Assembly (NCBI GenBank): GCA_031280685.1
Contig: JAITGM010000007.1
Span: 62,001 to 126,000 of the forward strand
Direction: 5' to 3'
From: Christensenellaceae bacterium
GTDB lineage: Bacteria; Bacillota; Clostridia; Christensenellales; UBA1750
DNA: 64,000 bases
The notes beneath the pieces were generated by a model that had not been told where the DNA came from, made no database searches, and saw nothing but the letters and a program-made list of their open reading frames with translations. The position numbers and the translations under genes were made by a program. Shown here in pieces: positions 27,595 through 49,230 of the stretch (positions are counted from its first letter, which is position 1; the number at the start of each line of letters is the position of its first letter).

Positions 27595-27598
27595 AGCC

Positions 27599-28200: not shown

Positions 28201-28204
28201 AACA

Positions 28205-28255: not shown

Positions 28256-28275
28256 TCCTTTCGATATTCCGGCCT

Positions 28276-28836: not shown

Positions 28837-28839
28837 CTG

Positions 28840-30246: not shown

Positions 30247-30266
30247 TTCGCCACCCCTTCCCGCTA

Positions 30267-31487: not shown

Positions 31488-31489
31488 GG

Positions 31490-33263: not shown

Positions 33264-33278
33264 TTTATCACCCCGCAT

Positions 33279-34937: not shown

Positions 34938-35287
34938 TCATCCCTCAAAGCCTGTAATTTGCTTTCTTTTTTCTTCACGGGCGGCGCAAGGTCGGCAAGC
35001 TGTTTCATAATTGCGGCGTGGTTTTTTGTCATGGCAATATGAGTTTTCACCGCCTCGGACTGCTTACGCCCGGACTGGTTCGCGCCGTTCTGGTATTCCT
35101 CGGTGTAGCCCTCTACGTTTATGATTTCCTGCAACTCTTCAAGCGACACCGCCATGAACGCGGCGTTGCGGATCAGGCTTTCAACGGTCTGCAATTTGTT
35201 TTTGTCAAGGTCACGAAAAACCCGCTTTAGTCGGCTGATCTCTTTCTTGATTTTCTGTTCTTTCGTAAGCTCTGCTTTTGTCGCCAT
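34934..35287 (-). CDS. Terminase small subunit
   Basis: 117 aa from ATG 35287 (MATKAELTKEQKIKKEISRLKRVF). Helical, with FRDLDKNKLQTVESLIRNAAFMAVSLEELQEIINVEG, a common P27-like small subunit pattern. It recognises the packaging start site and recruits TerL. Directly upstream of TerL on the same transcript. Confidence 0.8.
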   Translation of the reverse strand: MATKAELTKEQKIKKEISRLKRVFRDLDKNKLQTVESLIRNAAFMAVSLEELQEIINVEGYTEEYQNGANQSGRKQSEAVKTHIAMTKNHAAIMKQLADLAPPVKKKESKLQALRDE

Positions 35288-35392
35288 AAAAACGCCCCCT
35301 TCCTCCCGGCTACACACCACCCCCTCACGCTACACCCGTCATGCGCGCCTGTGTGGAGTAAAGTTAGCCGGCACGCTCGGTGCGGAAGCCGC

Positions 35393-35713
35393 CTAAAATT
35401 TTTCAAACGATGGGGGGGATAGTATCAAGTTGCCGTCGCTGTCGAAACTGTACCGCGAATTCCTTTCCGCTGCGTGATGCTCCCTGTTGTGGCAATCTTG
35501 ACAAAGTGCTTCAAGGTTGCCCCATGCAAGCGAAACGTAAGGATTATTTATATTATCCTGTGTCAAGTATTCCTTGTGGTGAACTATCTTTGCCGCAACC
35601 GGATTGCTCGGCGTGCTGCACCGTTCGCACAAGTAGCCCTTGCTTTGCATGAATGCCTCGCGGCATTGCTGCCATGCCACCGAAGCATAGAAGCGTTCAG
35701 CCCATGCTTTCAC
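35393..35713 (-). CDS. HNH endonuclease
   Basis: 106 aa from GTG 35713, preceded by a GGGAGG ribosome site. The HNH core reads CERCSTPSNPVAAKIVHHKEYLT...ALCQDCHNREHH with two CxxC zinc pairs. In HK97-type phages an HNH protein next to terminase is needed for specific cutting at packaging. A longer frame to 35935 crosses a terminator and a promoter region, so it is not the real start. Confidence 0.87.
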   Translation of the reverse strand: MKAWAERFYASVAWQQCREAFMQSKGYLCERCSTPSNPVAAKIVHHKEYLTQDNINNPYVSLAWGNLEALCQDCHNREHHAAERNSRYSFDSDGNLILSPPSFEKF

Positions 35714-35726
35714 ATCCTCACCGCCT

Positions 35727-35771
35727 CCCCAAAAAGAAAATAGCCGTGCCCTCGAAAGGGTACGGCTATAG
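35727..35771 (-). terminator. Terminator/attenuator between early and late regions
   Basis: ATAGCCGTACCCT and AGGGCACGGCTAT form a stem of about 13 bp with a short loop, followed on the minus strand by TTTTCTTTTT. It lies between the early operon and the packaging genes. Confidence 0.75.
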
Positions 35772-35790
35772 GCAATTCTGCATCGTCCAT

Positions 35791-35851
35791 AAGTATACCA
35801 TGTCGTTTGTGCATATGGAAAGTGCAAGTTATGCGCACGCCGTTTGTGCAT
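35791..35851 (-). promoter_or_regulatory. Candidate late promoter with direct repeats
   Basis: On the minus strand a -10-like TATACTT (35797-35791) has no good -35. Instead two direct copies of an 11-base motif (plus-strand reading CGTTTGTGCAT at 35804-35814 and 35841-35851), 37 bases apart, lie upstream. This is what an activator-dependent late promoter would look like, and an ArpU-like regulator gene ends at 35851. Confidence 0.5.
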
Positions 35852-36381
35852 TACAGCGCCGCCGCGCCATATAGCCATACCGCCAGCCGACGCACCAGCC
35901 GCCCCCGGTTCCGGCGCACTGTCGAAGCGTCGCATGGAATGACCGCCGCTATGTCGTCATCCGTCCGGCCTTCAAGAAATTTCCCGGCCACCGCCGCATA
36001 GTAGGGATCGGCCTCTATAGTTTTGAGCGCGCCCGCTATTGTGGCAACTTCGTATTCGTCGGCGGCAATTCGTGCTTCCATGTCCTGCACCAGCGCGTCA
36101 AGTATTTCTTCCGGCGTTAGTCGTGTTCCCGTTCTGGTGAACCGTACAATGTCTTTGCTGCGCCCCGGCGCTCCATGTAATAAATATTCTTGTAGCCGCT
36201 CCCTGTTGTCCACAATCCGGTTTTGCAAGACAGGAAAGGCGTAAAGCCGCTTTTCTGTGTCCTTGTATGCGTTCTTCGTTTCACTGGCGGCCTGAACCCG
36301 CCCGGCTTGCAGTCCAGCATTTACCGCCTTTTCAATTACCGCGTTTATATCCAGCGGTTTAGGTTTCTTGTTTTGTGCCAT
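35851..36381 (-). CDS. ArpU-like late transcription regulator
   Basis: 176 aa. The C-terminal part (VATIAGALKTIEADPYYAAVAGKFLEGRTDDDIAAVIPCDASTVRRNRGRLVRRLAVWLY) is a sigma-70 region 4-like helix-turn-helix found in ArpU/RinA-type phage regulators that switch on late genes. It is the last gene before the packaging operon and its stop abuts the candidate late promoter repeats. Alternative: a terminase-associated DNA-binding protein. Confidence 0.75.
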   Translation of the reverse strand: MAQNKKPKPLDINAVIEKAVNAGLQAGRVQAASETKNAYKDTEKRLYAFPVLQNRIVDNRERLQEYLLHGAPGRSKDIVRFTRTGTRLTPEEILDALVQDMEARIAADEYEVATIAGALKTIEADPYYAAVAGKFLEGRTDDDIAAVIPCDASTVRRNRGRLVRRLAVWLYGAAAL

Positions 36382-36778
36382 ATGCCATATCCTCCATTTT
36401 CAAATAATCTAAAATTACCTGTGCCGCTGGTTCCCACCCAAAGCAAAGGGCAACGCAATAACCCTGCGCCTTTAATCGCTCCATCCATTCCGTTTGTGTT
36501 TCGCTTACCTTGCCGCCCCGCTGCCGCTTTAGCTCTATGTAAAGGCCGTGGAAGCCTCCGCGGGCAACGGGTAAGCATATGTCCGGTATGCCAGCTTTCA
36601 CGCCCTCGGCTTTGAAGCGTCCCGCCTCGGCCTTGCTGCGGCTGCCGCCGTTCGGCACGTGGTACATAAGCGCCAATTCCGGAAAGCGCCCGCTTTGTAT
36701 AACTGCCCACTGAAATAGCGTTTGCTGTTCCTCGCTTTCCGTAGGAACTGGCAATGCGGCATTATTACGGCGTTGCAT
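36359..36778 (-). CDS. VRR-NUC domain nuclease
   Basis: 139 aa. TESEEQQTLFQWA, YHVPNGGSRSKAEAGRFKAEGVKAGIPDICLP and GLYIELKRQRGGKVSETQTEWM give the VRR-NUC core with catalytic Asp and Glu-x-Lys. Phage VRR-NUC proteins are structure-specific or Holliday-junction-type nucleases linked to replication and recombination. Overlaps both neighbours by short stretches. Confidence 0.9.
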   Translation of the reverse strand: MQRRNNAALPVPTESEEQQTLFQWAVIQSGRFPELALMYHVPNGGSRSKAEAGRFKAEGVKAGIPDICLPVARGGFHGLYIELKRQRGGKVSETQTEWMERLKAQGYCVALCFGWEPAAQVILDYLKMEDMAYGTKQET

Positions 36779-37136
36779 ATTGCGCCCCCTCTTGAAGCCC
36801 CTCTTTCAAGCCTTCTTTTAGTTTTTGTTCCCATTCGGCGAAGTAGAATATTTCCATTCCGTGGGCGGCGGCGTAACCGTGTTCAAACATTGCCCCGCGG
36901 CTGTCTGTCCAGTCCGGCAAAAAGCAAGCGGCTTTGCATTCTGCCAGCATTGCGCCGGATATGCGCATATATGCTTCGTAGTCAAACCCGCTCGAAGGAA
37001 GCATAGCGGGATTGAGAACGATAAACCCCGCCTTTTCCAGCGTTTGCGCCGCATCTAAGAATTTTAAGCGGTAATACGGATCACCTGTGATTTTCCCCGC
37101 AAGGTAAACTGTTGTCGCGTGTTTAGGCATTTTCAT
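36765..37136 (-). CDS. DUF4406-type nucleoside 2-deoxyribosyltransferase-like protein
   Basis: 123 aa. TTVYLAGKITGDPYYRLKFLDAAQTLEKAGFIVLNPAMLP and SRGAMFEHGYAAAHGMEIFY match the DUF4406 group of the nucleoside deoxyribosyltransferase fold. It may act on nucleotides or nucleosides during phage DNA synthesis; the reaction is not established. Confidence 0.82.
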   Translation of the reverse strand: MKMPKHATTVYLAGKITGDPYYRLKFLDAAQTLEKAGFIVLNPAMLPSSGFDYEAYMRISGAMLAECKAACFLPDWTDSRGAMFEHGYAAAHGMEIFYFAEWEQKLKEGLKEGLQEGAQYATP

Positions 37137-37441
37137 AGCTCCCCCTTTTCTCTTCTCGCTTGCATTTTATCGTTTAGGCGGTCGGCCACCCTCTGCGCCC
37201 GCCGCTGCGTGCGGTATAGCTCGCGCCGGGAAGCGTCGTATTCCTCGGCATAGCCCGGATCGCCTTCGTACATGTCATTCGGCGGCACAAGCTGCCATTC
37301 GCCCACGAATAGCTTTTTCGTTTTGTTGCTGTAGCTGAAAAGGCCACCTTTGCGAACCAGTGTCACGGGTACGGCGCAAAATGTTTCGTACATGTCCGTT
37401 ACAATCCAATATCGCCCGCCAATTCTCGGAAATATCACCAT
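37133..37441 (-). CDS. Phage hypothetical protein, 102 aa
   Basis: Begins at ATG 37441 (MVIFPRIGGRYWIVTDM) after a GGAGGG site. It has an N-terminal beta-rich half and a C-terminal Arg/Lys/Glu-rich helix (RRELYRTQRRAQRVADRLNDKMQARREKGEL). No family recognised. It sits between the MT-A70 methylase and DUF4406 genes with a 4-base overlap to the latter. Confidence 0.65.
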   Translation of the reverse strand: MVIFPRIGGRYWIVTDMYETFCAVPVTLVRKGGLFSYSNKTKKLFVGEWQLVPPNDMYEGDPGYAEEYDASRRELYRTQRRAQRVADRLNDKMQARREKGEL

Positions 37442-37445
37442 GCCT

Positions 37446-38078
37446 TTAACCCTCCTGTGCTTCAAAGTAATCAAAGAACGATAATTGCCCGTCGTCGTTG
37501 CCGGCCGCATTATCTGGCAACACTTCGGCTTCTTCGTCCGGCGCTTCGTTGCCCCAACAATCCCACCCCGGCGCGGATTGCCGGGCGAAAAGCTCTATTG
37601 CCTCGCCACCGCCCATAAGCTCCATAATTTTCTTCCGGACAATCGGCGGTTTTGCACTATGGCGGCCAAGTGGCCATTCGATAAGCTGCGATACGCTGGC
37701 CGAAACCCGCTTCGGCTTTCCTCGCGTCGCAATAAAGCAAGGTTCCGTATTTCCTCGCGTCCAGCGGCCAAGCCCGAAGAACCAGCCTTTGCCGCTTCGG
37801 TTCTGCTTTATCCACTGGAACCCGATTGTTTTATATTCAAAGCCCCATGCCTCAATAAGCCGTAAGGCTTCGCGCATCATGGGATATGTAGCCCAAAGAA
37901 ATAATACGCAATCCTTTTCCGCTATCCGTTCGACTGGTAGGGCGCATATGTCGTCGATCTTCATGGTCTGGTAATGCAATTCACAAGCTCCATTGCATTT
38001 CTTGTCGTTATAGCTCCACGGCGGATCGGCGTAAATTATGCTGTATTTCTTGTCTGTGTTGAAAATGTCCACATACAA
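37446..38078 (-). CDS. MT-A70 family DNA adenine methyltransferase
   Basis: 210 aa. The catalytic DPPW lies in YSIIYADPPWSYND; VLFLWATYPMMREALRLIEAWGFEYKTIGFQWIK and RGNTEPCFIATRGKP complete the MT-A70 pattern. It transfers a methyl group from SAM to N6 of adenine in DNA, probably to protect phage DNA. It is one of three methyltransferases in the early operon. Confidence 0.92.
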   Translation of the reverse strand: MYVDIFNTDKKYSIIYADPPWSYNDKKCNGACELHYQTMKIDDICALPVERIAEKDCVLFLWATYPMMREALRLIEAWGFEYKTIGFQWIKQNRSGKGWFFGLGRWTRGNTEPCFIATRGKPKRVSASVSQLIEWPLGRHSAKPPIVRKKIMELMGGGEAIELFARQSAPGWDCWGNEAPDEEAEVLPDNAAGNDDGQLSFFDYFEAQEG

Positions 38079-38084
38079 ACGCCG

Positions 38085-38963
38085 TCACCCCCTCTTTTTC
38101 TGCTTTTTCGTTTTTCGCGGCGGCGGCTCCGGCTTTAGGTGCATTTTCGCATATATGTAAGCCCCTGCCACGAATTTAGAACTTTTCACCGCTACTTCGT
38201 CGAAGTCGTATTCGGGAAATAGCTTGCTGAAAATCATCGGCGCGGCTGCGTCCATATCCTGCGCCATGCGCTCGGCCTGCCTTTTGCTGATCTTCGTGTC
38301 GGCGGTTGTTATGGTCGGCTCCTTCAAATTCCGCGAAGCCTGCCAGCGCTTGCTTTTCGTCGGCTGCTTCGTGATATACCGCGCCAACCCTTCCAGCGTG
38401 CCATCCTCCGGCTCTAATTCATCAACGCGAACGCTGCCATGCGGCCAAAGGCTTTTTACTGTTTTTCTATCCATGCCGGACATGATAACGTGATGGTGAA
38501 CCCGTGTCCTGCGCCCGTCGCCGTTGTAAAACTCAATCACGTAAACATACTTCAATTCCGAAAGCCCGTTTTTGCGCCGATATGTGCGAACCCGACGAAT
38601 GAAATTGCGTATGTCCCGGCGCGCCTGTTCTTCCTCTGGTAACACGCCGCGCTTGTAAGTAAGCGTTACATGGAGGTCTTCCGGCGTAAAGTTGGCATTG
38701 ATTTTCCGGATCAGTTTCTTTTTTGCGTTCCGGTCGTTCAAATTCTGCTGTGCTTCTCGGCTGGAATGCACCTTCGCCGCCCGAACCTCGTTTTTCGTGT
38801 TCCAAAGCGGGTAAACCTCCACTTCCAGAACCTGACCGCTTTTTATCGTGGCCGCCCTGTATCTGAAAATATCTTTGTGCCGCAATGCTTCAAAAGCGCT
38901 TTCTGTAAGCTCGCCGCACATCTGGTCAAAAAGAAATTCATAGTTTTTTGCGCTATACGGCAT
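38085..38963 (-). CDS. HUH rolling-circle replication initiator-like protein
   Basis: 292 aa. Three HUH endonuclease motifs are visible: motif 1 LHVTLTYKRG, the HUH motif RVHHHVIMSG and motif 3 LARYITKQ with the presumed nicking Tyr and Lys. Such proteins nick one DNA strand and stay covalently attached, starting rolling-circle synthesis. The C-terminus is strongly basic. Rep proteins of this class occur in filamentous phages, plasmids and some Firmicute prophages. Confidence 0.8.
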   Translation of the reverse strand: MPYSAKNYEFLFDQMCGELTESAFEALRHKDIFRYRAATIKSGQVLEVEVYPLWNTKNEVRAAKVHSSREAQQNLNDRNAKKKLIRKINANFTPEDLHVTLTYKRGVLPEEEQARRDIRNFIRRVRTYRRKNGLSELKYVYVIEFYNGDGRRTRVHHHVIMSGMDRKTVKSLWPHGSVRVDELEPEDGTLEGLARYITKQPTKSKRWQASRNLKEPTITTADTKISKRQAERMAQDMDAAAPMIFSKLFPEYDFDEVAVKSSKFVAGAYIYAKMHLKPEPPPRKTKKQKKRG

Positions 38964-38977
38964 TTTCCCTTACCCCC

Positions 38978-39532
38978 TCAATATCCGAAGTCATGCTTTA
39001 CTTGATTGCTGTAATGCGCGTCAAGCTCAAACACGGAATTGTAAAGGGCGGTCTGCAAGTATGCCTTTTTGTTATAAATTTTGCTGGTTATCTGTGCGAA
39101 GTTGTCCGCTACAAGTTCGGCGTGGGCGTGTGTCAACTGCGAATAAACTTCCTGCACCATTTCAACATTCGTAAATGAGCCGTTTATTTTTATCGCCTTC
39201 GGTGCGCCGTCCCGGTCTTCGATTTCCATTGCCAGCACTTCGGCGATTATGTAGCAGATTTCCTTATATCGCGGCAAGTCCGGATTTCCCGTATAATCCA
39301 AGTGGGCAAAATCAATTTGCCGCTTTGCTATTTCTATGGCTGCGGCCAAAGAAAGACGGACGGGACGGACTGACATTGACGCGCCGATGCATGAATGATT
39401 TTTTTCAAGAAGCGAAAGCGCACGGGATATATTTTGCATCGCCTCTTCTTCTGGCATCCCTCCTAAAAACCTTTCAAGCCTGTTTTTGATCTCTTGATAT
39501 TCTGCCAATGGCAGGGAAATATATTTATCCAT
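38978..39532 (-). CDS. DUF6017-like replication-associated protein
   Basis: 184 aa from ATG 39532, which follows GGAGG. The C-terminal part (FTNVEMVQEVYSQLTHAHAELVADNFAQITSKIYNKKAYLQTALYNSVFELDAHYSNQVKHDFGY) resembles the DUF6017 domain found at the C-terminus of RepA-type initiators of Firmicute plasmids and ICEs. Here it stands alone without the DNA-binding half. It precedes the HUH Rep-like gene by 15 bases, suggesting a shared role in replication. Confidence 0.7.
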   Translation of the reverse strand: MDKYISLPLAEYQEIKNRLERFLGGMPEEEAMQNISRALSLLEKNHSCIGASMSVRPVRLSLAAAIEIAKRQIDFAHLDYTGNPDLPRYKEICYIIAEVLAMEIEDRDGAPKAIKINGSFTNVEMVQEVYSQLTHAHAELVADNFAQITSKIYNKKAYLQTALYNSVFELDAHYSNQVKHDFGY

Positions 39533-39606
39533 TTTCACGGCCTCCATCGTTCAGATGATAATACCCATTACAAGCCCGTAATGCGCCACGGTTAGGCGCT
39601 TTTCGC

Positions 39607-39635
39607 TTGACTTGTAGCCGTGTGTTTGATATAAT
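39607..39635 (+). promoter_or_regulatory. Promoter of a plus-strand small RNA
   Basis: TTGACT (39607-39612) and TATAAT (39630-39635) separated by 17 bases, near consensus. It points against the direction of the surrounding early genes. Confidence 0.75.
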
Positions 39636-39641
39636 AATTAT

Positions 39642-39719
39642 GTTAGTTATCGCACTTACACACGGCATAAACCCTTCGGGGGAAAGCGGCTTGCAGTCTA
39701 CGCAAGCCGCTTTTGTTTT
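39642..39719 (+). ncRNA. Predicted prophage small RNA, about 75-80 nt
   Basis: A near-consensus promoter is followed within 80 bases by a perfect 11-bp stem (AAGCGGCTTGC at 39684-39694 and GCAAGCCGCTT at 39702-39712) and a T-rich tail, so a short transcript should be made. A second small hairpin (CCCTTCGGGG) lies in its middle. The only open frame begins at the very transcription start without a ribosome site. It sits between the Cys-rich early protein and the DUF6017-like replication gene, inside an otherwise minus-strand operon. No known RNA family is recognised. Confidence 0.65.
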
Positions 39720-39727
39720 GCGTTCTT

Positions 39728-40102
39728 TTATCCGTAATTTTCGCCGTCGAATTCTTCATACTCGCCGCAATCTGGTTCGCCCTCTTTTGGCGAATAGCGG
39801 ATACCGTCCACGCAACCGACGCACGGGAACGGATTTTCTTCATCCGTTTCGGCGCTGCCATCGTCAAGCGGGCAATGCGCCAGCTTCGCGCACGTGTTGC
39901 ACCAACACGCTTTACAGTCGGCAATATTCGTTTTGCCCGGCGTTGCCGCTGCTGGTTTTTCGTCCTGCGTCCAGTAAAGAGCCTCCATCGCCGTAGGGAA
40001 CACAACTTCAAGAAACTTCGTGCGTTCCCGGTCGATAAAGTCCGGATCACCGTGCGCTTCGAATTCAATGTCGGCTATCTTATATCTAACGCGGCTTTCC
40101 AT
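39728..40102 (-). CDS. Cysteine-rich early phage protein, 124 aa
   Basis: N-terminal half MESRVRYKIADIEFEAHGDPDFIDRERTKFLEVVFPTAMEALYW is followed by a cysteine cluster (DCKACWCNTCAKLAHCPL...FPCVGCVDG...DCGEYEE) that could bind zinc or an Fe-S cluster. No family recognised. The start overlaps the end of the 48-aa membrane peptide gene, so translation is probably coupled. Confidence 0.7.
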   Translation of the reverse strand: MESRVRYKIADIEFEAHGDPDFIDRERTKFLEVVFPTAMEALYWTQDEKPAAATPGKTNIADCKACWCNTCAKLAHCPLDDGSAETDEENPFPCVGCVDGIRYSPKEGEPDCGEYEEFDGENYG

Positions 40103-40232
40103 TCCCGCGGCCTCCTTTTATAATGTTGCGTATGCAGGCCAGCACCACGGCCACGATCAGCGCCGCGCCTCCTGCGCAAGCAACGCCCACAAGCAAATAG
40201 AAGGCGTTTGCCATAAATTGAAATGCCGTCAT
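40086..40232 (-). CDS. 48-aa single-pass membrane peptide downstream of the VR2 protein
   Basis: ATG 40232 overlaps the stop of the VR2 gene (ATGA) and its own TAG overlaps the start of the next gene. One hydrophobic helix (FYLLVGVACAGGAALIVAVVLACI) is followed by a basic tail (RNIIKGGRGNGKPR), so the C-terminus should face the cytoplasm. Tight translational coupling to the DGR-diversified protein suggests stoichiometric expression and perhaps membrane anchoring of it; this is inference. Confidence 0.7.
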   Translation of the reverse strand: MTAFQFMANAFYLLVGVACAGGAALIVAVVLACIRNIIKGGRGNGKPR

Positions 40233-41044
40233 TTGTCATCGCCTCCGAAAAAGTTTATAGTGCGGGCGAAGTGGAACATCAATTCCCACGCTTGCGTTTC
40301 ATTAAAGCCCGCCGTTTGAAATTCGCTATACATATTAAATAAGGTATGTGCCAGCTGGCCGAAGTCGCATTCGTCTTCGTCCGGCTCTTCTTTTTCCTGT
40401 GCGTATGGCGCGGGCGGCGCTTCGCCGAAGAAGTTTTTGTAAAGCGCGTCCATGATTTCCGAAAATGGCGCTTTTACACGCTGCTTCACTTCGGCTTCAT
40501 CGTAAGATACCGAAATATCAGATTTCAGATAACAAAGCGGACGAACGCCCCAGCTACCGTGGTACGCGCGGCTGTTGTCCAACGCGCCGGACGTGTTGAC
40601 GCTGCGCACGTTACGGGAATTTCCGTTCCGCTCGGTCGTCCACGGTGTACAAGTCCACCACCAATCAGACGCATCCGGGATCAGCTTTCTATAATGGCGG
40701 TACATGTCGCATGTGATAAGGCCAATTGTTACGGTTTCCTTGCCGTAGTCCGTTAACCCGTCGTCCGAAGTCAAATCCAGCGCAATAGGCCGGAAAGCTT
40801 CCTTGTCCGCGCCGCCCTCTATGAGCGCGCTCAAAAACTCTTCATTCAAATATGCGCGAAGAGAAGAGGCGGCAAAGTCGTTTTTGTTGTCTTCGTCGAA
40901 GGCGCGTTCCTCCAGCACGTCGGCGGCAAGGCACAACGCCGCATTTGGCCTATGCTCCAGCACAACCCATTTCACGCCGCCGTATGTAAAGCGGCTTCCG
41001 GCCTCCAGCGTCGAAAGTGTCCCGGTTTTCATTGCGGTTTCCAT
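40229..41044 (-). CDS. DGR target 2: early DUF6273-like protein carrying VR2
   Basis: 271 aa. The domain (LRAYLNEEFLSALI...WWWTCTPW...VRSVNTSGALDNSRAYHGSWGVRPLC) is homologous to the variable domain of the tail target, and residues 145-170 are VR2. No signal peptide or Ig-like repeats are present; the C-terminal 75 residues are a helical tail (FSEIMDALYKNFFGEAPP...CDFGQLAHTLFNMYSEFQTAG). It therefore seems to be an intracellular protein. It lies in the early operon after the MazG-like gene, with AAGGAG before its ATG, and is coupled to a small membrane peptide. Confidence 0.88.
   Translation of the reverse strand: METAMKTGTLSTLEAGSRFTYGGVKWVVLEHRPNAALCLAADVLEERAFDEDNKNDFAASSLRAYLNEEFLSALIEGGADKEAFRPIALDLTSDDGLTDYGKETVTIGLITCDMYRHYRKLIPDASDWWWTCTPWTTERNGNSRNVRSVNTSGALDNSRAYHGSWGVRPLCYLKSDISVSYDEAEVKQRVKAPFSEIMDALYKNFFGEAPPAPYAQEKEEPDEDECDFGQLAHTLFNMYSEFQTAGFNETQAWELMFHFARTINFFGGDDK
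40535..40612 (-). other. DGR variable region VR2 (remote)
   Basis: 78 bases aligned without gaps to the 3' part of the template repeat at 20704-20781. It differs at eight positions, all adenine in the template. The adenine-free 17-base 3' block is identical to TR and VR1. Beyond it, VR1 and VR2 continue to resemble each other (CTTTGT.ATCTG) while TR does not, as expected for the IMH side. It lies about 19.8 kb from TR. Confidence 0.95.
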
Positions 41045-41094
41045 GTTTCACTTCTCCTTATATATAATGTAGTGGTGCGCTGCCACCCGCTCGG

Positions 41095-41535
41095 TTAGCA
41101 TTTTTTGCCGCCGTGACGATATGGGCGGCTTTTGTTGTATTCGTGCTTAATACGGATCGCTCGTTCAATGTCAATTCCGGCGTGGCCGCAATAGTCCAAA
41201 ATGCGTATAATGCAGTCTGCCAGCTCCACGGCCACACCTTCCGGCTTTTCCACTCTGTCCGTGCATTCTTCGCAATGGCCGCAATCAGCGTCGGAACTGT
41301 CGGCAATCCGATCTTGCGGATCGTCTTCGTGCAATGTTTCTTTACACTTGTGATAAACCATCGGCATTCCGTCCCTAAATTCTTCCAACGCCTCCGCAAG
41401 CTCCGACACGCAAAGCATAAGAATTTCCGGAAGGCCACGCGGTTCTTCCCACCAGCCATGCGCAACCGCGTTTTGGTGGATTTCTGCGGCAAGCTCATTC
41501 ATGCCAGTGCCGGGCGCTACTGTGTTAATGTCCAT
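41095..41535 (-). CDS. MazG-like nucleotide pyrophosphohydrolase
   Basis: 146 aa from ATG 41535. LCVSELAEALEEFRDGMP and VAVELADCIIRILDYCGHAGIDIERAIRIKHEYNKSRP form the ExxE...ExxD metal-binding helices of the all-alpha NTP pyrophosphatase superfamily. A Cys-rich insert (DADCGHCEECTD) separates them. Phage MazG proteins hydrolyse dNTPs or (p)ppGpp-like signals. It lies just upstream of the VR2 protein gene. Confidence 0.85.
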   Translation of the reverse strand: MDINTVAPGTGMNELAAEIHQNAVAHGWWEEPRGLPEILMLCVSELAEALEEFRDGMPMVYHKCKETLHEDDPQDRIADSSDADCGHCEECTDRVEKPEGVAVELADCIIRILDYCGHAGIDIERAIRIKHEYNKSRPYRHGGKKC

Positions 41536-41539
41536 TTGT

Positions 41540-42172
41540 CTATTCCTCCCCGTCAATTTCTGTTTGTTCGCCCTCGCTCTCACGCCGGGCGGCTTCGCGT
41601 TCGGCTTTTCGCGCTTCTTTCAATTCAAAGGAAGTGCGGCATTTGCTCGAAAGCTGTTCCATGCTCTCAACAAATTTTGCTTCAAGGATATTCAGCGGCA
41701 TAATAACACCCGCTATCATAAGCCCCATTTTTGCCGCAAAGTACGTGCCGCCTTCCGGCGTGTGCCGCTCGTATAGTTCTAAATCGTCCGCTACATCTGC
41801 AAGCGGTGCTAAAAAATCAGCGTCGATAAACTCCAATCCTCCACGTGTGAACAGTGGTCGGACAACGCGCCCACTATAGCCAAGCGTTATTTTCTCGCGG
41901 TCAAGCATAGTTTCGTCTGTGTCTATATGGTCAAAATTGATAGAGGTCGGAAGCCGATCATGTCGAATGTAGATTTTTTCAAGTTGCTTTTCCGTTAGGT
42001 CGAACATTGCCGCAATGTTTTCTTCCGTCAGGTAAGGTAAGCCGGAAAGCGGGTAAACGGCTGCGTGTGTCCCTAACCACTGTTCCGTTATTTCGCCTTC
42101 GGCGCTTATGCGGTCGTACAAACAATACACGCCATCACGCTTGCACATGGCCGCCAGTGTCTTCAATTTCAT
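41540..42172 (-). CDS. Conserved early phage protein, 210 aa
   Basis: MKLKTLAAMCKRDGVYCLYDRI..EGEITEQWLGTHAAVYPLSGLPYLTEENIAAMFDLTE is a pattern I associate with conserved Firmicute prophage proteins of unknown function. The C-terminus is a charged helix (ELKEARKAEREAARRESEGEQTEIDGEE). It is followed 4 bases later by the MazG-like gene. Confidence 0.7.
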   Translation of the reverse strand: MKLKTLAAMCKRDGVYCLYDRISAEGEITEQWLGTHAAVYPLSGLPYLTEENIAAMFDLTEKQLEKIYIRHDRLPTSINFDHIDTDETMLDREKITLGYSGRVVRPLFTRGGLEFIDADFLAPLADVADDLELYERHTPEGGTYFAAKMGLMIAGVIMPLNILEAKFVESMEQLSSKCRTSFELKEARKAEREAARRESEGEQTEIDGEE

Positions 42173-42183
42173 ATCGCACCCCG

Positions 42184-42492
42184 CTACATTGATATTTTTT
42201 CATACACTTTGACCGCTTCGTGCCCGTAGGTGTCCCGCTGCACGTAGGTAACAAGCGCTGACTGCATCCACGAATTGCGAAGATGATCGCGGGCAACCCG
42301 CTTTGCCAGCTTCCACGCGGCGCGCTTGTCTTCGCCGCTGGAATAGACGGGGAATTCAGCTATAAGCCTGTAATCATTCCCCCGCATAGAGGCCGCGCGC
42401 TCTCGCATGAACTCTTTGCGCCCGTCCCTGCACTTGAAAATTTCCGTGTCCTTCGGAAAGCTCCAGCTTTTGCCGCCGTTGTCCTTTGCCAT
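42184..42492 (-). CDS. Early phage hypothetical protein, 102 aa
   Basis: From ATG 42492 (MAKDNGGKSWSFPKDTEIFKCRDGRKEFM). Basic, mixed alpha/beta, with DKRAAWKLAKRVARDHLRNSWMQSALVTYVQRDTYGHEAVKVYEKISM. No family recognised. Located between the SleB-like hydrolase and the 210-aa conserved protein. Confidence 0.6.
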   Translation of the reverse strand: MAKDNGGKSWSFPKDTEIFKCRDGRKEFMRERAASMRGNDYRLIAEFPVYSSGEDKRAAWKLAKRVARDHLRNSWMQSALVTYVQRDTYGHEAVKVYEKISM

Positions 42493-42506
42493 GTGTCCCG
42501 CTCCTT

Positions 42507-43124
42507 TCAATCTTTGTATGGATTTTGCAAGCTCCAGTCCCAAAGCTCGCCGCTACTGTAGGTGTTGCGAAAATGGTTGTTCTTGCCGTCGCCCGTGAAG
42601 AATGTGTATTCTGCTGGAAGAACGCGCCCCGCATCTCCAAGGCCGATTTTTTCAAGCTTCCACCGCGCCAGCACGTCGGCGGCTATGGCTATATGCTCTT
42701 CTGTGGCCGGATAGCTCGGCGAGTATCCCACGAACTGGTTTTCTTGCTTCACAACCTCGGCTATGGTATCCGGCCAGCGCGGATCGTCAACCCGGTTCAG
42801 CACGCACCATACAACCGCCGCTTTTTCCGCTGTAGAGGGAATGCCCCGTGCTTCGCCCCATATGAGCCGCGCCAGCATTTCAACGTCGTTTTCGTCCCGC
42901 TCCGCTTCCGGCGCTCTTATTACACTGTCGCCCGGTTCTGTTGCGCTTTCGGCTTGTTCGATAACACTTTCTGGTGTTTCAATAACGGTTTCCGGCGTTT
43001 CGGTCACATAATCGGGCGTTGTGTCGCTGTTGGTTGCCAGTGTCGGCGTATGTGGCGGCATAATTGCTGCGGCGAAAATAACAACGCCCGCTATCATGCA
43101 GATAAGAAGGGAAGGCTTTTTCAT
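42507..43124 (-). CDS. Membrane-anchored cell wall hydrolase, SleB/Hydrolase_2 type
   Basis: 205 aa. An N-terminal signal anchor (LLICMIAGVVIFAAAIM) is followed by a low-complexity linker with repeated ETPETVIETPESVIEQAES units and then a SleB-like Hydrolase_2 domain: MLARLIWGEARGIPSTAEKAAVVWCVLNRVDDPRWP carries the catalytic Glu. These enzymes are lytic transglycosylase-like. It lies in the early operon beside methyltransferase genes, not in the lysis cassette, so it may act during lysogeny or early infection. Confidence 0.82.
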   Translation of the reverse strand: MKKPSLLICMIAGVVIFAAAIMPPHTPTLATNSDTTPDYVTETPETVIETPESVIEQAESATEPGDSVIRAPEAERDENDVEMLARLIWGEARGIPSTAEKAAVVWCVLNRVDDPRWPDTIAEVVKQENQFVGYSPSYPATEEHIAIAADVLARWKLEKIGLGDAGRVLPAEYTFFTGDGKNNHFRNTYSSGELWDWSLQNPYKD

Positions 43125-43924
43125 ATAGCCGCCTCCTTTATCCAAAGAACTTCAATGCGTGCTTGCCCCCGCTCGGCGGCGGCTTTCTTTTCAATGCGCT
43201 GCCAGCCCGCCAAGCGCTCGTTGTAAAGTTCGTTGTCGTACCCGCTCAAAACCACGGAACCGGAATGCGCCGCCAATGCCTCCAGTAATTCCACATGCTG
43301 CGCATCGTTCATTTCAATGGCATATATGTTTTTTCGGCGGGTTCCCGGTACATATGGCGGATCGGCATAAATAAGACATTTTGGATCGTTGTACTTGCGG
43401 ATAAGCTCCAAAGCGTCCATGCACTCTATTTGCGCTTCCATTAGGCGGCCGGCCGCTTGTATGATCCTCTCTGGAACCTTCGCCCATTGCTGCGGCATTG
43501 CGGGCGCTCTGCCTGTAGCGCTGTGCCTCCAGCCTGTTTTTTGCCCGGTAAGCGTTCCGAAAGCCTGCCAGCATCGCACAAGGAAAAGGCGTGCGGCGTA
43601 TAAGTCGGCTTCGTCGCTATGCTTGCAAGCCTCCAGCGCTTCAAGCGCCGTGCAAGCGATTTCGTATTCTTCACGCGCCCACGGCGTTAAGGCTATGAGC
43701 GCCGCCAACTCTTCCGGTTGGCTACGAATGACGCGAAACAGATTTACCACGTTGTGATCGCGGTCGTTTATGGTTTCCAGTCGGGCGGGTTTTTTGTTAA
43801 AAAATATGGCTCCGCTACCGAAGAATGGTTCAAGGTAGATTTCATGCGCCGGAAGTTGTGGTATAATCCAGCTCGCCGCGCTCCATTTTGCACCGGGATA
43901 TTTCAAAAGCGGTCGTTGTGTCAT
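43121..43924 (-). CDS. DNA adenine methylase, Dam/D12 class
   Basis: 267 aa from ATG 43924 (GGAGG upstream). N-terminal PLLKYPGAKWS and YLEPFFGSGAIFF bind SAM; the catalytic motif is CLIYADPPYVPGTR. RARLFL-type features (AARLFLVRCWQAFGTLTG) also fit the D12 class. It methylates N6 of adenine, probably in a GATC-like site. Its start overlaps the stop of the C5 methyltransferase gene (ATGA). Confidence 0.92.
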   Translation of the reverse strand: MTQRPLLKYPGAKWSAASWIIPQLPAHEIYLEPFFGSGAIFFNKKPARLETINDRDHNVVNLFRVIRSQPEELAALIALTPWAREEYEIACTALEALEACKHSDEADLYAARLFLVRCWQAFGTLTGQKTGWRHSATGRAPAMPQQWAKVPERIIQAAGRLMEAQIECMDALELIRKYNDPKCLIYADPPYVPGTRRKNIYAIEMNDAQHVELLEALAAHSGSVVLSGYDNELYNERLAGWQRIEKKAAAERGQARIEVLWIKEAAI

Positions 43925-45264
43925 ATAGCTGCCTCCCTGCCCCGCCATACATCGAAGTAACCCGCTCGGCGCACTGCGAAAGCGTCCCCGCGCTGGACAA
44001 TATCCGGGTAATTGCTGCTTGCTATTTGCATTGCGTATTTGTCTATCTCAAAGGCGTAATACTTTATGTTGTTGTATCCCAACTGGTCGAAGCAATAGCG
44101 CCCCGTGCCGATCCCGTCATACATGGACATAACAACAATTCTTTCATCCAGCGGAACGCCCGCCAGCGCGTGGCGTAAAAGGTGTATAATAACTTCCGCT
44201 GTCCAACCGTTGCCAAGCCCTCTATACGCTTGCGTATCAGATACCGCCCGGCAATAATCGTCCGGCAAGGTCTGGAGGCGGCAAGCCTCGGTTACGCTTA
44301 ATTTTCGGATTATGTAATAGCCATCCGGTAATTTGATAGGATAGGTTTTGCCCTTAATCTCAATTTGTCCAGCTTCCACGCGATACACTGGCCGGCCGCG
44401 CTCCACATTATCAGAAGGCACGGCATAAAGCCCGGTTCGGCTACTGCTTTTATCGCTACATCCTCCTGCGGTCGTGGCCGCTTGCAGGGCAACGCTTTTT
44501 GCGTCTACCGCATAAATGCGCTTTGATTGTGTTGGTTTCAGCTCGCCCTTTTCATTCGGAAGACAACCAACCCGGACGGGTACGCCTTGATAACCCTTCG
44601 TGCGGATTATGTTTTCTTCGAAATTGCGTTTGCCGCATTTGTCATATGAAGCGCGGAAGCATTCGGCCTTTTCCCGGTCGGCAACTGGCATAGCGTAAAG
44701 CCCCGTTGCTGCACCCCCGCCGCCGTCCGTCGCTTTTAGTGTAACGCTCTTTCCGTCAACGCCATAAATGCGCCCCGCCTGCTGCTGGTAGTCCGGCCAC
44801 GTTCCCACACGGTTAGGTGCTACCGCCTCGGCAACCATATTCCGGGTATGTCGCTTCAAACTGTCTTCCGGCGTGGGGCCGTGCGCCGTGGTAAGTGTGT
44901 ATGCTTTATCGCTCCAACTTTCGCCCCGCTCCAAAATGTCTTGAAGTAATATGCCGCGGTCTTCCGGCTGCGGAACGTCGCCGAAATTGTGGCAATAGAA
45001 CCGTTCCCGCCGCTGCGCGGATACCAGCGCCGAATTGATATACTGGAGCGGCGCGCCAAGCTCGGCGGCTATCTGGTCTTTGATCGGCTGCGCGGCGCTT
45101 TTGTTGTTCTCGTATAAGAAGAAGTCCGGCTTGAAGCGCTCTTTGGCGATAAGGTAGTTTCTGAATAGCTCCCACCCTATGCCCTCGGCTTCGGTTTCGC
45201 GGTTCTTGCTCTGCGCTATGCTCCAGTGCGTGCAGGGCGAACCGCCGATTAAGAATTTGATCAT
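43921..45264 (-). CDS. Circularly permuted DNA cytosine-5 methyltransferase
   Basis: 447 aa from ATG 45264, with AAAGGTG upstream. Motif order is unusual: the N-terminus begins with motif IV (IGGSPCTHWSIA, catalytic Cys), then motif VI-like FFLYENN and motif VIII-like SAQRRERFY. Then come a variable target-recognition stretch with two repeated RIYxVDxKSV...GLYA(M/V)P units and motif IX/X (LSVTEACRLQTLPDDY, YRGLGNGWT). SAM-binding motif I (VVMSMYDGIGTGRYCFDQLGY) comes last, with motifs II-III. The DGIGTG form resembles Dnmt3-type sequences. It probably protects phage DNA. Confidence 0.88.
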   Translation of the reverse strand: MIKFLIGGSPCTHWSIAQSKNRETEAEGIGWELFRNYLIAKERFKPDFFLYENNKSAAQPIKDQIAAELGAPLQYINSALVSAQRRERFYCHNFGDVPQPEDRGILLQDILERGESWSDKAYTLTTAHGPTPEDSLKRHTRNMVAEAVAPNRVGTWPDYQQQAGRIYGVDGKSVTLKATDGGGGAATGLYAMPVADREKAECFRASYDKCGKRNFEENIIRTKGYQGVPVRVGCLPNEKGELKPTQSKRIYAVDAKSVALQAATTAGGCSDKSSSRTGLYAVPSDNVERGRPVYRVEAGQIEIKGKTYPIKLPDGYYIIRKLSVTEACRLQTLPDDYCRAVSDTQAYRGLGNGWTAEVIIHLLRHALAGVPLDERIVVMSMYDGIGTGRYCFDQLGYNNIKYYAFEIDKYAMQIASSNYPDIVQRGDAFAVRRAGYFDVWRGREAAI

Positions 45265-45349
45265 GTTAGTTAGCACCTTTCGTTAATGGTTAGCCAGGCG
45301 GGGGACGGGTTCGATCACGTCTGGCGGGGCAGTCAATATTTGAAGCCGC

Positions 45350-45589
45350 CTACTTCCCGCGGCGCTCCAGCTTTTTAGCCGCCTCCGCGTATTCGTGAAA
45401 CGCCGTGGACATGTCCCGCACTATGCCGTCACACACGGCCTTTTCGTCGCTTGTCATTTTGCCGCCGTCGTCCAGCGGCCTTTTGTCGGTGTAGAAGCGG
45501 ACGCTTTCCACTATGGAGCCGTCCGGCGCGCGAAGGCCGACAACGCCTTCGCGCGGTTCGCCGCTGGTTCGTTCGATTTTTACCGCCAT
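45350..45589 (-). CDS. Small early phage protein, 79 aa
   Basis: MAVKIERTSGEPREGVVGLRAPDGSIVESVRFYTDKRPLDDGGKMTSDEK followed by a helix (GIVRDMSTAFHEYAEAAKKLERRGK). First gene after the Cro-like repressor and just behind the second operator copy, so it is among the first early products. No family recognised. Confidence 0.65.
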   Translation of the reverse strand: MAVKIERTSGEPREGVVGLRAPDGSIVESVRFYTDKRPLDDGGKMTSDEKAVCDGIVRDMSTAFHEYAEAAKKLERRGK

Positions 45590-45606
45590 GTCGTCACCTT
45601 CCTAAA

Positions 45607-45623
45607 GTTACGTAAAACGCAAC
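45607..45623. promoter_or_regulatory. Operator copy downstream of the Cro-like gene
   Basis: GTTACGTAAAACGCAAC, an imperfect dyad (GTTACGT/ACGCAAC), and exactly the inverse complement of 45859-45875. It lies at the end of the Cro-like gene, before the next early gene. Confidence 0.7.
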
Positions 45624-45844
45624 TACGCCGCAAAAAAAATATCTTGCGGCCTTGCGTTTAGGACGGAAGCGAAGGCTTCCATCTCGCTTCGCGTAAAATC
45701 GGTTTTCCCGTTAATACGCGCGGAAAGAGTGGCACGGCTCATTCCCATCTTTTCGGCCATTGTGCCAATGTCAAGGCCAGCATCTACAAGTTTTGCCTTC
45801 AAACTCCGCGACTGGCCTTCTGTCAAATAGGCGTGTGCGCTCAT
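45623..45844 (-). CDS. Cro-like helix-turn-helix regulator
   Basis: 73 aa from ATG 45844 (GGAGGTG upstream). AGLDIGTMAEKMGMSRATLSARINGKTDFTRSEMEAFASVLN is a compact XRE-type HTH. It is divergent from the CI-like gene and is the first gene of the early operon. Two inverted copies of a 17-base operator flank it, so it probably controls both its own promoter and readthrough into the operon. Confidence 0.82.
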   Translation of the reverse strand: MSAHAYLTEGQSRSLKAKLVDAGLDIGTMAEKMGMSRATLSARINGKTDFTRSEMEAFASVLNARPQDIFFAA

Positions 45845-45858
45845 CGTTTTCACCTCCT

Positions 45859-45875
45859 GTTGCGTTTTACGTAAC
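45859..45875. promoter_or_regulatory. Operator copy upstream of the Cro-like gene
   Basis: Plus strand GTTGCGTTTTACGTAAC, the exact inverse complement of the copy at 45607-45623. It lies between the early promoter -10 and the Cro-like start codon, ideal for repression. Confidence 0.75.
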
Positions 45876-45876
45876 C

Positions 45877-45906
45877 ATGATAGCATACTGTTTGTGGGCT
45901 TGTCAA
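45877..45906 (-). promoter_or_regulatory. Early (PR-like) promoter
   Basis: On the minus strand TTGACA (45906-45901) and TATCAT (45882-45877), 18 bases apart, drive the Cro-like gene and the early operon. Confidence 0.7.
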
Positions 45907-45912
45907 TACGCC

Positions 45913-45936
45913 ACGTCAAAAAGTTTCGTTTGACGT
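45913..45936. promoter_or_regulatory. CI-type operator between divergent promoters
   Basis: ACGTCAAA-N8-TTTGACGT, a perfect 8-bp dyad midway between the two divergent -35 elements, a different sequence from the Cro-type operators. A CI dimer here could touch polymerase on both sides. Confidence 0.65.
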
Positions 45937-45937
45937 A

Positions 45938-45966
45938 TTGATTTTAAGACGCGCCAGTGGTACAAT
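45938..45966 (+). promoter_or_regulatory. Lysogenic (PRM-like) promoter of the CI-like gene
   Basis: TTGATT (45938-45943) and TACAAT (45961-45966), 17 bases apart, about 30 bases before the CI-like ATG. Confidence 0.65.
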
Positions 45967-45996
45967 GAAAGAACCTTATTGAAATGTGGTGGTTTT

Positions 45997-46368
45997 ATGA
46001 ACATAGGGGATAGGATAAGAGAATTAAGAGAACGGCGCGGCCTCACGCAAGAAGAGGTCGGAAGTCACCTGAATGTCAATAAGGCGACTGTGCAGCGTTA
46101 CGAAAGCGGTAACATTGATATTAAGCGTAAAACCGCTTTGCTGCTTGCCGAAGTCTTGCAAACAACCCCCGCTTACATTATGGGATGGGAAGACGAAGTT
46201 GTGGAGCCTGACACGCTCACCGCTGACGAACAACAGCTTTTGCGTGATTACCGGGCGTTGAGCGATCAGGGCAAAGAGTACATGCGCCAAACTATGGTTA
46301 TGGCGCTTCACACATATAAAAAAGATAGTGCTATTTCCGACATGGAAGTTGCCGAAGAAATAGGGTAA
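45997..46368 (+). CDS. CI-like lysogeny repressor (XRE family)
   Basis: 123 aa from ATG 45997. Strong N-terminal HTH (IGDRIRELRERRGLTQEEVGSHLNVNKATVQRYESGNIDIKRKTALLLAEVLQTTPAYIMGW), then an acidic hinge and a helical C-terminal region (DEQQLLRDYRALSDQGKEYMRQTMVMAL). No LexA-like peptidase domain is present, so induction cannot occur by RecA-stimulated self-cleavage and probably needs an antirepressor or metalloprotease, neither of which was found nearby. Confidence 0.9.
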   Translation: MNIGDRIRELRERRGLTQEEVGSHLNVNKATVQRYESGNIDIKRKTALLLAEVLQTTPAYIMGWEDEVVEPDTLTADEQQLLRDYRALSDQGKEYMRQTMVMALHTYKKDSAISDMEVAEEIG

Positions 46369-46433
46369 AGCATTCCAAAATAAAAAAGCCCCTCCAGCCC
46401 GAAGGCCGAAGGGTTATGAAAGGACGTTTAAGC

Positions 46434-47417
46434 ATGAGCGGTTTATACTTTTCTATAAACGCAAGCGGCGAACTCGTGCGTGTGGATGCGCCGGAAAAAC
46501 AAAAACCTTCGCGCGAAGGTAAGGGCAGAAGCCTACTTGAAGCGTTGTCAAGCTATGTCGTGCTTGATTTAGAAACTACAGGACTTGATCCCCGTTGGGA
46601 TAGCATAATAGAGATTGCCGCCGTGCGTGTGCAGGATGGCAAAATTACAGATCAATTCCAAACGCTTGTAAATCCGGGTTTTGAAGTAGACAACTTCATT
46701 ATTGAACTGACCGGAATAACCAACGAAATGCTTTCTTCCGCTCCATCTGTCGAAGATGTGTTGCCGCGCTTTGTTGAATTTGTCGGCGACAGTGTGGTAA
46801 TTGGCCACAACGTGAACTTTGACGTTAATTTCATATACGACGACTGCAAGCGCATTATGTCTGTTCCGTTCGCCAATGACTTTATAGACACTATGCGCGT
46901 AAGCCGCCGCCTCTACAAAGAATATTCAAATCATACGCTTTCGGACTTGCTGGAACGCTTTTCTATCGGCGGCAATGTAGAGCATCGCGCACTATCTGAC
47001 GTGTTGAAGACAAATGCTTGCTATGTCTACATGAAGGATTACGCCAGTAGCCACGATATAGAATTCGCTTCGCTCTATCCTTTGAAAGGCGGCGTTTCGG
47101 CGAAAAATATTCAGACTGGCGAAACGGAATTTGACGAAAGCACGGCAGTATATAACAAGCTCTTTGTATTCACCGGGGCTTTGGAGCGCATGACACGAAA
47201 AGAGGCTATGCAGATCGTTGTAGATATGGGCGGCAAGGTTGCCGACAATGTAACGAAAAAAACCAGTTACCTTGTGTTGGGCAATAACGATTACTGCACT
47301 ACAATAAAAGACGGCAAAAGCACGAAGCAAAAGAAAGCTGAACAGTTTAAGCTATCTGGCCTTGACATTGAAACCATTTCGGAAGACATCTTCTACGAAA
47401 TGCTATCAGGACAATAA
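46434..47417 (+). CDS. DEDDh exonuclease (PolC/DnaQ-like) with C-terminal BRCT domain
   Basis: 327 aa from ATG 46434 (AAAGGA upstream). The exonuclease has YVVLDLETTGLDPRWDSIIEIAAVRV, IGHNVNFDVNFIYDD and EHRALSDVLKT, giving the DEDDh residues. The last ~80 residues form a BRCT domain (LFVFTGALERMTRKEAMQIVVDMGGKVADNVTKKTSYLVLGN). It lies in the lysogeny module between cI and int on the plus strand, so it may be made in the lysogen. DNA repair, replication fidelity or a defence role are all possible. Confidence 0.87.
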   Translation: MSGLYFSINASGELVRVDAPEKQKPSREGKGRSLLEALSSYVVLDLETTGLDPRWDSIIEIAAVRVQDGKITDQFQTLVNPGFEVDNFIIELTGITNEMLSSAPSVEDVLPRFVEFVGDSVVIGHNVNFDVNFIYDDCKRIMSVPFANDFIDTMRVSRRLYKEYSNHTLSDLLERFSIGGNVEHRALSDVLKTNACYVYMKDYASSHDIEFASLYPLKGGVSAKNIQTGETEFDESTAVYNKLFVFTGALERMTRKEAMQIVVDMGGKVADNVTKKTSYLVLGNNDYCTTIKDGKSTKQKKAEQFKLSGLDIETISEDIFYEMLSGQ

Positions 47418-47436
47418 ACGCCGGGAAGGTGATTGT

Positions 47437-49230
47437 ATGGGCGCTGCTGCATTACAAAACGCCGTCATATATGCCCGCTACTCCAGCCACGGGCAGACGG
47501 AACAAAGCATAGAGGGACAATTACGGGACTGCTACGCCTTCGCCGAACGTGAAGGCTATGTTGTCGTGGAGGAATACATAGACAGGGCTTTAACCGGGCG
47601 TTCGGATGATCGCCCGGACTTCCAGCGCATGATCGCCGACGCGCCGAAGAAGCAGTTTTCCTATGTGATTGTCTGGAAGCTGGACAGGTTCGCCCGGAAC
47701 CGCTTTGACAGCGCCAACTATAAGCACCAGCTAAAAAAGCACGGCGTGCGCGTGGTGTCGGCCACGGAACGCATAAGCGACGATCCCGAAGGCATCATGC
47801 TTGAAGGTATGCTTGAAAGCCTTGCGGAATACTACAGCGCCAACCTTTCGCAAAACGTGAAGCGCGGCCAGCGGGAAAGCGTCATAAAAGGCACGTACAC
47901 GGGCGGCATTCCTCCCTTTGGCTTCAAAGTAGTAGACAAGAAGCTTGTAGCCGACGAAGCAACCGCGCCTATAATCAAATGGGTATTTGAGCAATATGCT
48001 TCCGGCGTGCCGAAGAAGTTAATTATGGATACGCTGAACGCCCGCGGCGTGAAAAACTATTATGGGCGGCCTATGTCGCTTTCCAGCCTCCAGCACGCGC
48101 TACGCAATCGAAAGTATATCGGCGAATACCTCTACAACGGGCAGGAAGTAACGGGCGGTTGTGAAGCGCTCATAGACGTAACAACCTTCAATCAGGTGCA
48201 GGAAAGGCTTGATAAGCTACGCCACGCGCCCGCTACGAAGAAGGCGCGGCAGGACTATTTATTGCAGGGCAAGGCGTTTTGCGGCTATTGCGGAACAAAG
48301 CTTGTAGGCGACGGCGGTACGGGCAAGATGGGGAAGGTATACCACTACTACGCTTGCGGCAAAAAGAAGAAATACCGCACATGCCAGAAACTCAACGAAA
48401 AGAAGGATTTTCTGGAATGGTACGTAGTGGAACAGACGGTTGAATACGTGCTTACGCCGCCGCGCATGAAGTATATTGCAAGCCGCCTTGTGGAGCGGTA
48501 CGAACAGGACTTCGGCGGCGCGAAGGTTAAGGAAATGGAACGCCAGCTTGAAAAGCTGGAGCGGGACATAAGCCGGGCGGTTGACGCTTCCATAGAAGCC
48601 CCATCGAAAAAAGCCCGCGAACGCTTCTATGAGAAAATAGAAACGCTGGAGGCTAAAAAGGAAGATTTAGAACTTGATCTTGCCCGGCTTCGTCTGGTGA
48701 ATGGCATTCAGTACACCGAAGAGCAAATAATAGCGTGGATGAAGACTTTTTGCAAAGGTGATCCGCTCGACGAAGTTTTCAGACGGCGCATTATCGACGT
48801 TTTCATAAATGCCGTGTACGTCTACGACGACAAAATAGTTATTTACTATAACGTGAAAAACGGCAAGCAAGTTTCGTATATGGAAATGTGCGAAGACTTA
48901 GAAGGGCTTGAAGATTTAGACGGCGCGTGCTATGATATGGACAAGTCAAGCGGGGTTCGGATTTCAGGTAACACGCTCCGCCACGCCGCCGCGAACTCTA
49001 CTGAGTTCGCGGCGGCTTTTTGCAAGCGACCTTTCTCATTCCGTCGTTTAACTCAAATTCCCGATTCTCGCATCGCTTCCCTTCGGCCGCGCCGCTCACG
49101 GCTCACTACACGCTCCGCCCACTTGCGAAGGGAATTTCACTGCGGGCGGTGCTTAATGAGCGAAAACGAAGGGAAAATCGGCTTAATTCCCCGGCAAAAA
49201 CGCGGCCCAAACGCCGCACGGCCAGGGTAA
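47437..49230 (+). CDS. Large serine integrase (C-terminus reads into host DNA)
   Basis: 597 aa as read in the lysogen. A resolvase domain (AVIYARYSSHGQTEQSIEGQLRDC, catalytic Ser in YARYSS), a recombinase domain, a zinc ribbon (KAFCGYCGTKLVG...YYACGKKKKYRTCQ) and a coiled-coil-containing C-terminal domain. ATG 47437 follows GGGAAGG. The attR core (48976-48983) lies inside the frame: residues up to about 515 are phage DNA and the last about 82 are host DNA. In the circular phage the frame would end after 23 other residues (538 aa). Confidence 0.93.
   Translation: MGAAALQNAVIYARYSSHGQTEQSIEGQLRDCYAFAEREGYVVVEEYIDRALTGRSDDRPDFQRMIADAPKKQFSYVIVWKLDRFARNRFDSANYKHQLKKHGVRVVSATERISDDPEGIMLEGMLESLAEYYSANLSQNVKRGQRESVIKGTYTGGIPPFGFKVVDKKLVADEATAPIIKWVFEQYASGVPKKLIMDTLNARGVKNYYGRPMSLSSLQHALRNRKYIGEYLYNGQEVTGGCEALIDVTTFNQVQERLDKLRHAPATKKARQDYLLQGKAFCGYCGTKLVGDGGTGKMGKVYHYYACGKKKKYRTCQKLNEKKDFLEWYVVEQTVEYVLTPPRMKYIASRLVERYEQDFGGAKVKEMERQLEKLERDISRAVDASIEAPSKKARERFYEKIETLEAKKEDLELDLARLRLVNGIQYTEEQIIAWMKTFCKGDPLDEVFRRRIIDVFINAVYVYDDKIVIYYNVKNGKQVSYMEMCEDLEGLEDLDGACYDMDKSSGVRISGNTLRHAAANSTEFAAAFCKRPFSFRRLTQIPDSRIASLRPRRSRLTTRSAHLRREFHCGRCLMSENEGKIGLIPRQKRGPNAARPG
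48953..48983. other. attR (phage-side arm plus core)
   Basis: Arm GGGTTCGGATTT (48953-48964) and core CTCCGCCA (48976-48983). After the core the sequence continues CGCCGCC, the natural downstream flank of a tRNA-Ser gene as seen at 61711. Confidence 0.8.
48985..49021 (+). terminator. Original terminator of tRNA-Ser(GGA), displaced by the prophage
   Basis: GCCGCCGCGAACTC and GAGTTCGCGGCGGC form a perfect 14-bp stem with a 4-nt loop and five T residues. It is nearly identical in sequence and placement to the terminator directly after tRNA-Ser(GCT) at 61712. This supports the idea that it once followed tRNA-Ser(GGA) and was separated from it by insertion. Confidence 0.85.

Follow-up and report, generated by a model that had tools for sequence, protein, structure and literature searches.

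What becomes of a phage integrase whose own attachment site lies inside its gene? This question is raised by a prophage of a gut bacterium, located in a 64,000-nt window of the host contig (the whole stretch of DNA that was analyzed; coordinates are positions within this window unless a contig is named, Table 1). Terminase, portal, major head, tape-measure and endolysin proteins are encoded between two att sites, and the target of integration, a tRNA-Ser(GGA) gene, is intact in the lysogen because the att core restores its 3' end. The 8-bp core was rejected as evidence on its own: CTCCGCCA occurs six times in the window, with 3.3 copies expected, and three of these six copies are 3' ends of tRNA-Ser genes. 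The att assignment is real because the flanking arms, and not the 8-mer, decide it: joining the phage ends creates an attP with perfect 12-bp inverted arms (GGGTTCGGATTT/AAATCCGAACCC) centred in the core, and arms of equal quality arose in 5 of 100,000 joins made at random within the window. In addition, attP shows GTTC at -21 and GAAC at +23 relative to the core start, and the corresponding elements of attB are found at -16 (GTTC, in the T-arm of the tRNA) and +17 (GAAC, in the terminator stem), 5 and 6 bp nearer to the centre. In serine integrases, the recognition motif is located about 5 bp further out in attP than in attB (PMC3783163). Both the short core (8 bp) and the outward shift of the attP elements (5 and 6 bp) are thus those of a large serine integrase. 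Uninterrupted tRNA-Ser genes of relatives are in most cases directly followed by a terminator-like hairpin, and one of them (L191) is preceded by the same GDSL-lipase-like gene as in the window; right-hand synteny for an empty attB was not found in the relatives.

Table 1. Features of the prophage, its attachment sites and the integrase gene (positions in the 64,000-nt window)
Feature	Position	Strand	Remarks
Prophage	14600..48983	.	34.4 kb; based on att sites and phage hallmark genes
tRNA-Ser(GGA), integration target	14509..14599	+	ARAGORN and Rfam tRNA
att core CTCCGCCA at attL	14592..14599	+	3' end of tRNA-Ser(GGA)
att core CTCCGCCA at attR	48976..48983	+	in frame within int
Left inverted arm of attP, GGGTTCGGATTT	48953..48964	+	inside int
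Right inverted arm of attP, AAATCCGAACCC	14609..14620	+	
Large serine integrase (int), lysogen form	47437..49230	+	597 aa; ATG at 47437
Orphaned int 3' end	14598..14669	+	23 codons and stop TAA (14667-14669)
Conserved hairpin motif FIFVNGVFGCVFKR	14625..14666		within orphaned int 3' end
Phage terminator-like hairpin AAGCCCCCGTGC..GCACGGGGGCTTT	14680..14719	+	after int stop in circle; carries T-run; read directly in sequence
Host tRNA-Ser terminator	48985..49021	+	14-bp stem and T run; inside lysogen int frame, before any stop
XRE-type repressor-like gene	45979..46368	+	upstream of int; attP not inside

The gene that contains attP codes for a large serine integrase with matches above cut-off to PF00239, PF07508 and PF13408, representing a resolvase domain followed by Recombinase and zinc-ribbon domains; the integrase alignment shows invariant Tyr, Arg and Ser in the catalytic region and four invariant Cys columns. 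The initial annotation had placed the core inside the integrase reading frame and proposed that integration swaps the tail of the enzyme, with a 538-aa form in the excised circle and a 597-aa form in the lysogen. Joining the ends bore out each of these points. The core is in frame, and the lysogen form comprises a phage-encoded body up to residue 515 followed by 82 host codons; in the circle the frame instead closes with 23 phage codons ending ..QFIFVNGVFGCVFKR, which gives an open reading frame of 538 aa. The initial annotation had overlooked the host terminator inside the lysogen frame. The gene directly upstream of int (46416-47417) encodes a protein that resembles a DNA polymerase exonuclease subunit and whose C-terminal part gives a DNA-ligase-like match (probably BRCT).

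A one-off accident was rejected as an explanation by the recurrence of the tail arrangement in relatives. The peptide [IV]F[VA]xGxxGxVxx[RK], represented in the window by FIFVNGVFGCVFKR, follows attP in 29 relatives, and the arrangement is kept at 43-76% identity with different targets, including several tRNA types. Among full-length genes scored with a pattern tuned on this integrase family, which may miss diverged tails, 25 of 43 on viral contigs carried the motif, vs 4 of 61 on genome contigs (Fisher p 1.2e-8). For example, a tailed member (L104) and a lysogen member (L014) match up to ..GCTCCACCA and then diverge, one continuing into the tail and the other into host DNA. Among 34 distinct tails, differences at codon positions 1, 2 and 3 amount to 0.45, 0.24 and 0.62, respectively, and pN/pS is 0.42, which indicates selection on the peptide and not just on the DNA. 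Conservation at the DNA level was rejected as an explanation, since the greater part of the motif is situated past the right attP arm and its variation is concentrated at third positions. The earlier suggestion that the swap matters thus gains support, since the lost tail is conserved across the family and evolves as a protein; altered stability or a changed direction of recombination, as also suggested in the initial annotation, would be a possible consequence. No PHROG match was obtained for the 35-residue tail of L099. Two sequenced phages are also worth mentioning. The integrase of Roseburia phage Shimadzu (LR596903.1; L140), recorded as a pseudogene, ends with NPVYFFKKVFAVVVNFTRK, reminiscent of the tail, and a gene of Acutalibacter phage Fontainebleau annotated as 'similar to integrase' (ON453893.1, bases 1-1446; L141) runs to the end of the record, perhaps because the record was opened at an att site within the integrase gene.

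AlphaFold2 models of two tailed members predict the motif as a beta-hairpin (E515-519/E522-528 in one member, E514-518/E521-527 in the other) that is preceded by a disordered linker of some 40 residues, encoded in part by attP. Linker pLDDT is below 50; confidence in the hairpin is moderate (block means of about 67 and about 80), and most alignment rows are common to both models. Alignment with the solved integrase structures (Bxb1, SPbeta, phiC31) stops at residue ~478 of the model, and the predicted hairpin therefore seems to be an extra element of the known integrase fold.

Where, then, is the tail in lysogens? Integrases of lysogens lack it, and a tail profile search recovered an orphan copy elsewhere in lysogen genomes; the orphan tail of the window itself was found by the profile in its own genome with an E-value of 2.3e-12. 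Three tails (L148, L152, L158) are profile matches only and were missed by the motif pattern. In several cases the orphan tails adjoin tRNA genes for Ser, Trp, Leu, Tyr or Ala, or a tmRNA gene. As in the window, joining at the core reopens the frame in the integrase and tail pairs L149/L012, L153/L017 and L154/L015; no clear shared core of at least 7 bases was found for the pairs L151/L025, L155/L009 and L156/L011, or for L157 or L164 with L007/L008. The genome from which the window derives contains two further tails, on contigs C40 and C31. Contig C40 encodes a 65%-identical integrase (13050-14609), which ends ..SVRISKTKA; an orphan tail (48799-48858) is located on the same strand at a distance of 34 kb, and the junction shows no recognizable tRNA. 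On contig C31 (688-1101) a family tail, which reads PPTTPKAEPLFVFLNGIFGVVCFR, begins precisely where the tmRNA gene ends, and another element of this integrase family thus appears to be inserted at the tmRNA in the same genome. Anaerotruncus sp. G3, a named strain, offers a natural experiment: its genome carries nearly the same integrase twice (L007 and L008; 4 differences in 1560 nt) with different host-derived tails (ARHEPVYRFCRQAFILFTG vs ARHNLKNEKPFNPAN), and two orphan tails (L157, L164) after two tRNA-Ser genes. The core shared by these copies seems to be shorter than 7 bases. In three other relatives (L013, ~11500; L019, ~6368; L044, ~2434) the integrase runs into sequence resembling a tRNA or tmRNA 3' end in antisense, and one of these tails contains GIRTPG. 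Judged from such junctions, insertion may occur in either orientation in some relatives.

Insertion at a tRNA 3' end also places a host terminator downstream of the phage-encoded part of int. Considering lysogens with a recognizable terminator, it lies ahead of any in-frame stop codon in 27 of 36, and a stop codon comes first in the remaining 9; in tailed forms a terminator precedes the stop codon in 0 of 29 and follows it in 18 of 29. A non-stop design selected in the integrase frame was rejected, as the same geometry is present in the other two frames (29/36 and 25/36); the non-stop geometry is therefore a by-product of tRNA-end insertion and not selected. Because of the position of the host terminator, the 597-aa form may rarely be completed, and the product in the lysogen is likely a truncated, non-stop one. 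Non-stop int mRNA, a substrate of tmRNA, is predicted to be common in lysogens, and the host has tmRNA.

We propose that attP splits int into two parts, namely the complete body of a large serine integrase and a short C-terminal beta-hairpin, which is conserved and attached by a flexible linker. The circular phage would produce body and hairpin, ending at the gene's own stop codon. Integration at the tRNA 3' end would then separate the hairpin codons, which come to lie at the opposite prophage end, from the body, which becomes fused to host DNA, so that the lysogen would make Int without a hairpin, usually from an mRNA that ends at the tRNA terminator without an in-frame stop codon. The hairpin would serve the infecting phase, in which integration takes place; integration would switch off the integration-proficient Int, and Int made by the prophage would act in excision without driving re-integration. 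The split gene, the conserved tail with its protein-level selection, its loss in lysogens and the terminator geometry can be read from the sequences themselves, and it is the role of the tail (required for integration, degron or RDF-like) that we infer. Taken as a whole, an integration-state switch that removes a selected element of Int appears to us evenly poised between right and wrong. Excision needs Int, and tail-less Int must therefore keep some activity or arise by read-through, which counts against a switch. According to a more specific version, the hairpin is an intramolecular directionality element, and Int with the hairpin only integrates and without it can excise. This version is tentative and rather unlikely to hold in full; if true, the state of the DNA would encode the direction of recombination and replace the RDF partly or wholly.

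There are several other conceivable explanations for the conserved tail and its loss. The tail might be a destabilizing tag, with the tailed Int of the infecting phage degraded fast and the Int of the prophage stable, similar to the BPs repressor switch. Hydrophobic C-terminal peptides can be degrons, which would suit this idea. Moreover, switches in which attP lies within a gene and integration removes a C-terminal degron are established (PMC4557955; PMC8092301). However, none of the 29 tails has an ssrA-like -AA end, the last residues vary (the window tail ends in KR), and conservation is seen in the hairpin strands and the glycines rather than at the extreme C-terminus. The lack of -AA ends disfavours an ssrA-type degron in particular, and a predicted hairpin also fits poorly with a tag; we consider this explanation unlikely. 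Alternatively, the main effect might be exerted at the level of mRNA, with the tail being secondary: the host terminator ahead of the stop codon would give rise to non-stop Int mRNA, which would be cleared by trans-translation. The terminator counts in lysogens vs tailed forms and the tmRNA of the host are in line with this, but the stop codon precedes the terminator in a quarter of the lysogens, there is no bias for the real frame, and the conservation of the tail peptide is left unexplained, so that such a mechanism seems improbable as the main effect.

Still another interpretation is that the tail serves the folding or activity of Int in an ordinary way and that the position of attP is historical, the Int of the lysogen being just less active without any regulation. 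Conservation alone is indeed no proof of regulation, and the prophage needs Int only at induction. Yet the arrangement has been kept in relatives and across targets and tRNA types, and the split persists although a stop codon before attP should be easily reached by selection. We therefore give this interpretation little credence as well. A built-in integration switch is plausible because many related phages share the arrangement.

The one-way action of serine integrases and the avoidance of futile excision have so far been explained by RDFs and the coiled-coil. The family described here adds a selected C-terminal element that is removed by the enzyme's own reaction, in many clostridial phages and at several tRNA and tmRNA targets. 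If the tail controls direction or activity, this would be a self-inactivating integrase, possibly useful as a tool. In any case, an integrase of this family that is retrieved from a prophage genome is missing its genuine C-terminus.

The principle of an attP located within a gene is not new, with Mx8 int and the BPs repressor as precedents. In Myxococcus phage Mx8 (and Mx9) attP likewise lies within the int coding sequence, which receives a new 3' end on integration, and the same position of attP and alteration of the C-terminus are found in the window. The altered Int of Mx8 is reportedly not inactivated but changed in specificity (PMC6070905). For the Mx8 type, neither a conserved hairpin tail nor a family with many tRNA genes as targets was reported in the literature searched. 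The Int of Mx8 is of the tyrosine type. In mycobacteriophages of the BPs type attP is located in the repressor gene and a degron is lost on integration (PMC4557955; PMC8092301). This integration-dependent immunity resembles the window in that attP lies inside a gene whose C-terminus differs between virus and prophage. However, the gene concerned is a repressor gene in the BPs type and the lost tail is often an ssrA-like degron, whereas here attP is located in a serine integrase gene and not in the repressor-like gene, and the tail is not ssrA-like; the -AA tag, typical but not universal for such systems, is absent from all 29 tails. With Bxb1, SPbeta YokA, phiC31 and A118/LI the integrase of the window shares the domain order, the catalytic and zinc-ribbon motifs, the short core and the attP/attB spacing. 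In contrast to these enzymes, it targets tRNA and tmRNA 3' ends, has its attP within the coding sequence and possesses a predicted C-terminal hairpin. Targeting of tRNA and tmRNA 3' ends has been described as typical of tyrosine integrases (PMC6109161), and the literature searched, which was covered in part, contained no report of the attP-in-gene arrangement in serine integrases. What would be new is thus the combination of a serine integrase, tRNA and tmRNA targeting and a conserved, putatively structural tail in many clostridial phages.
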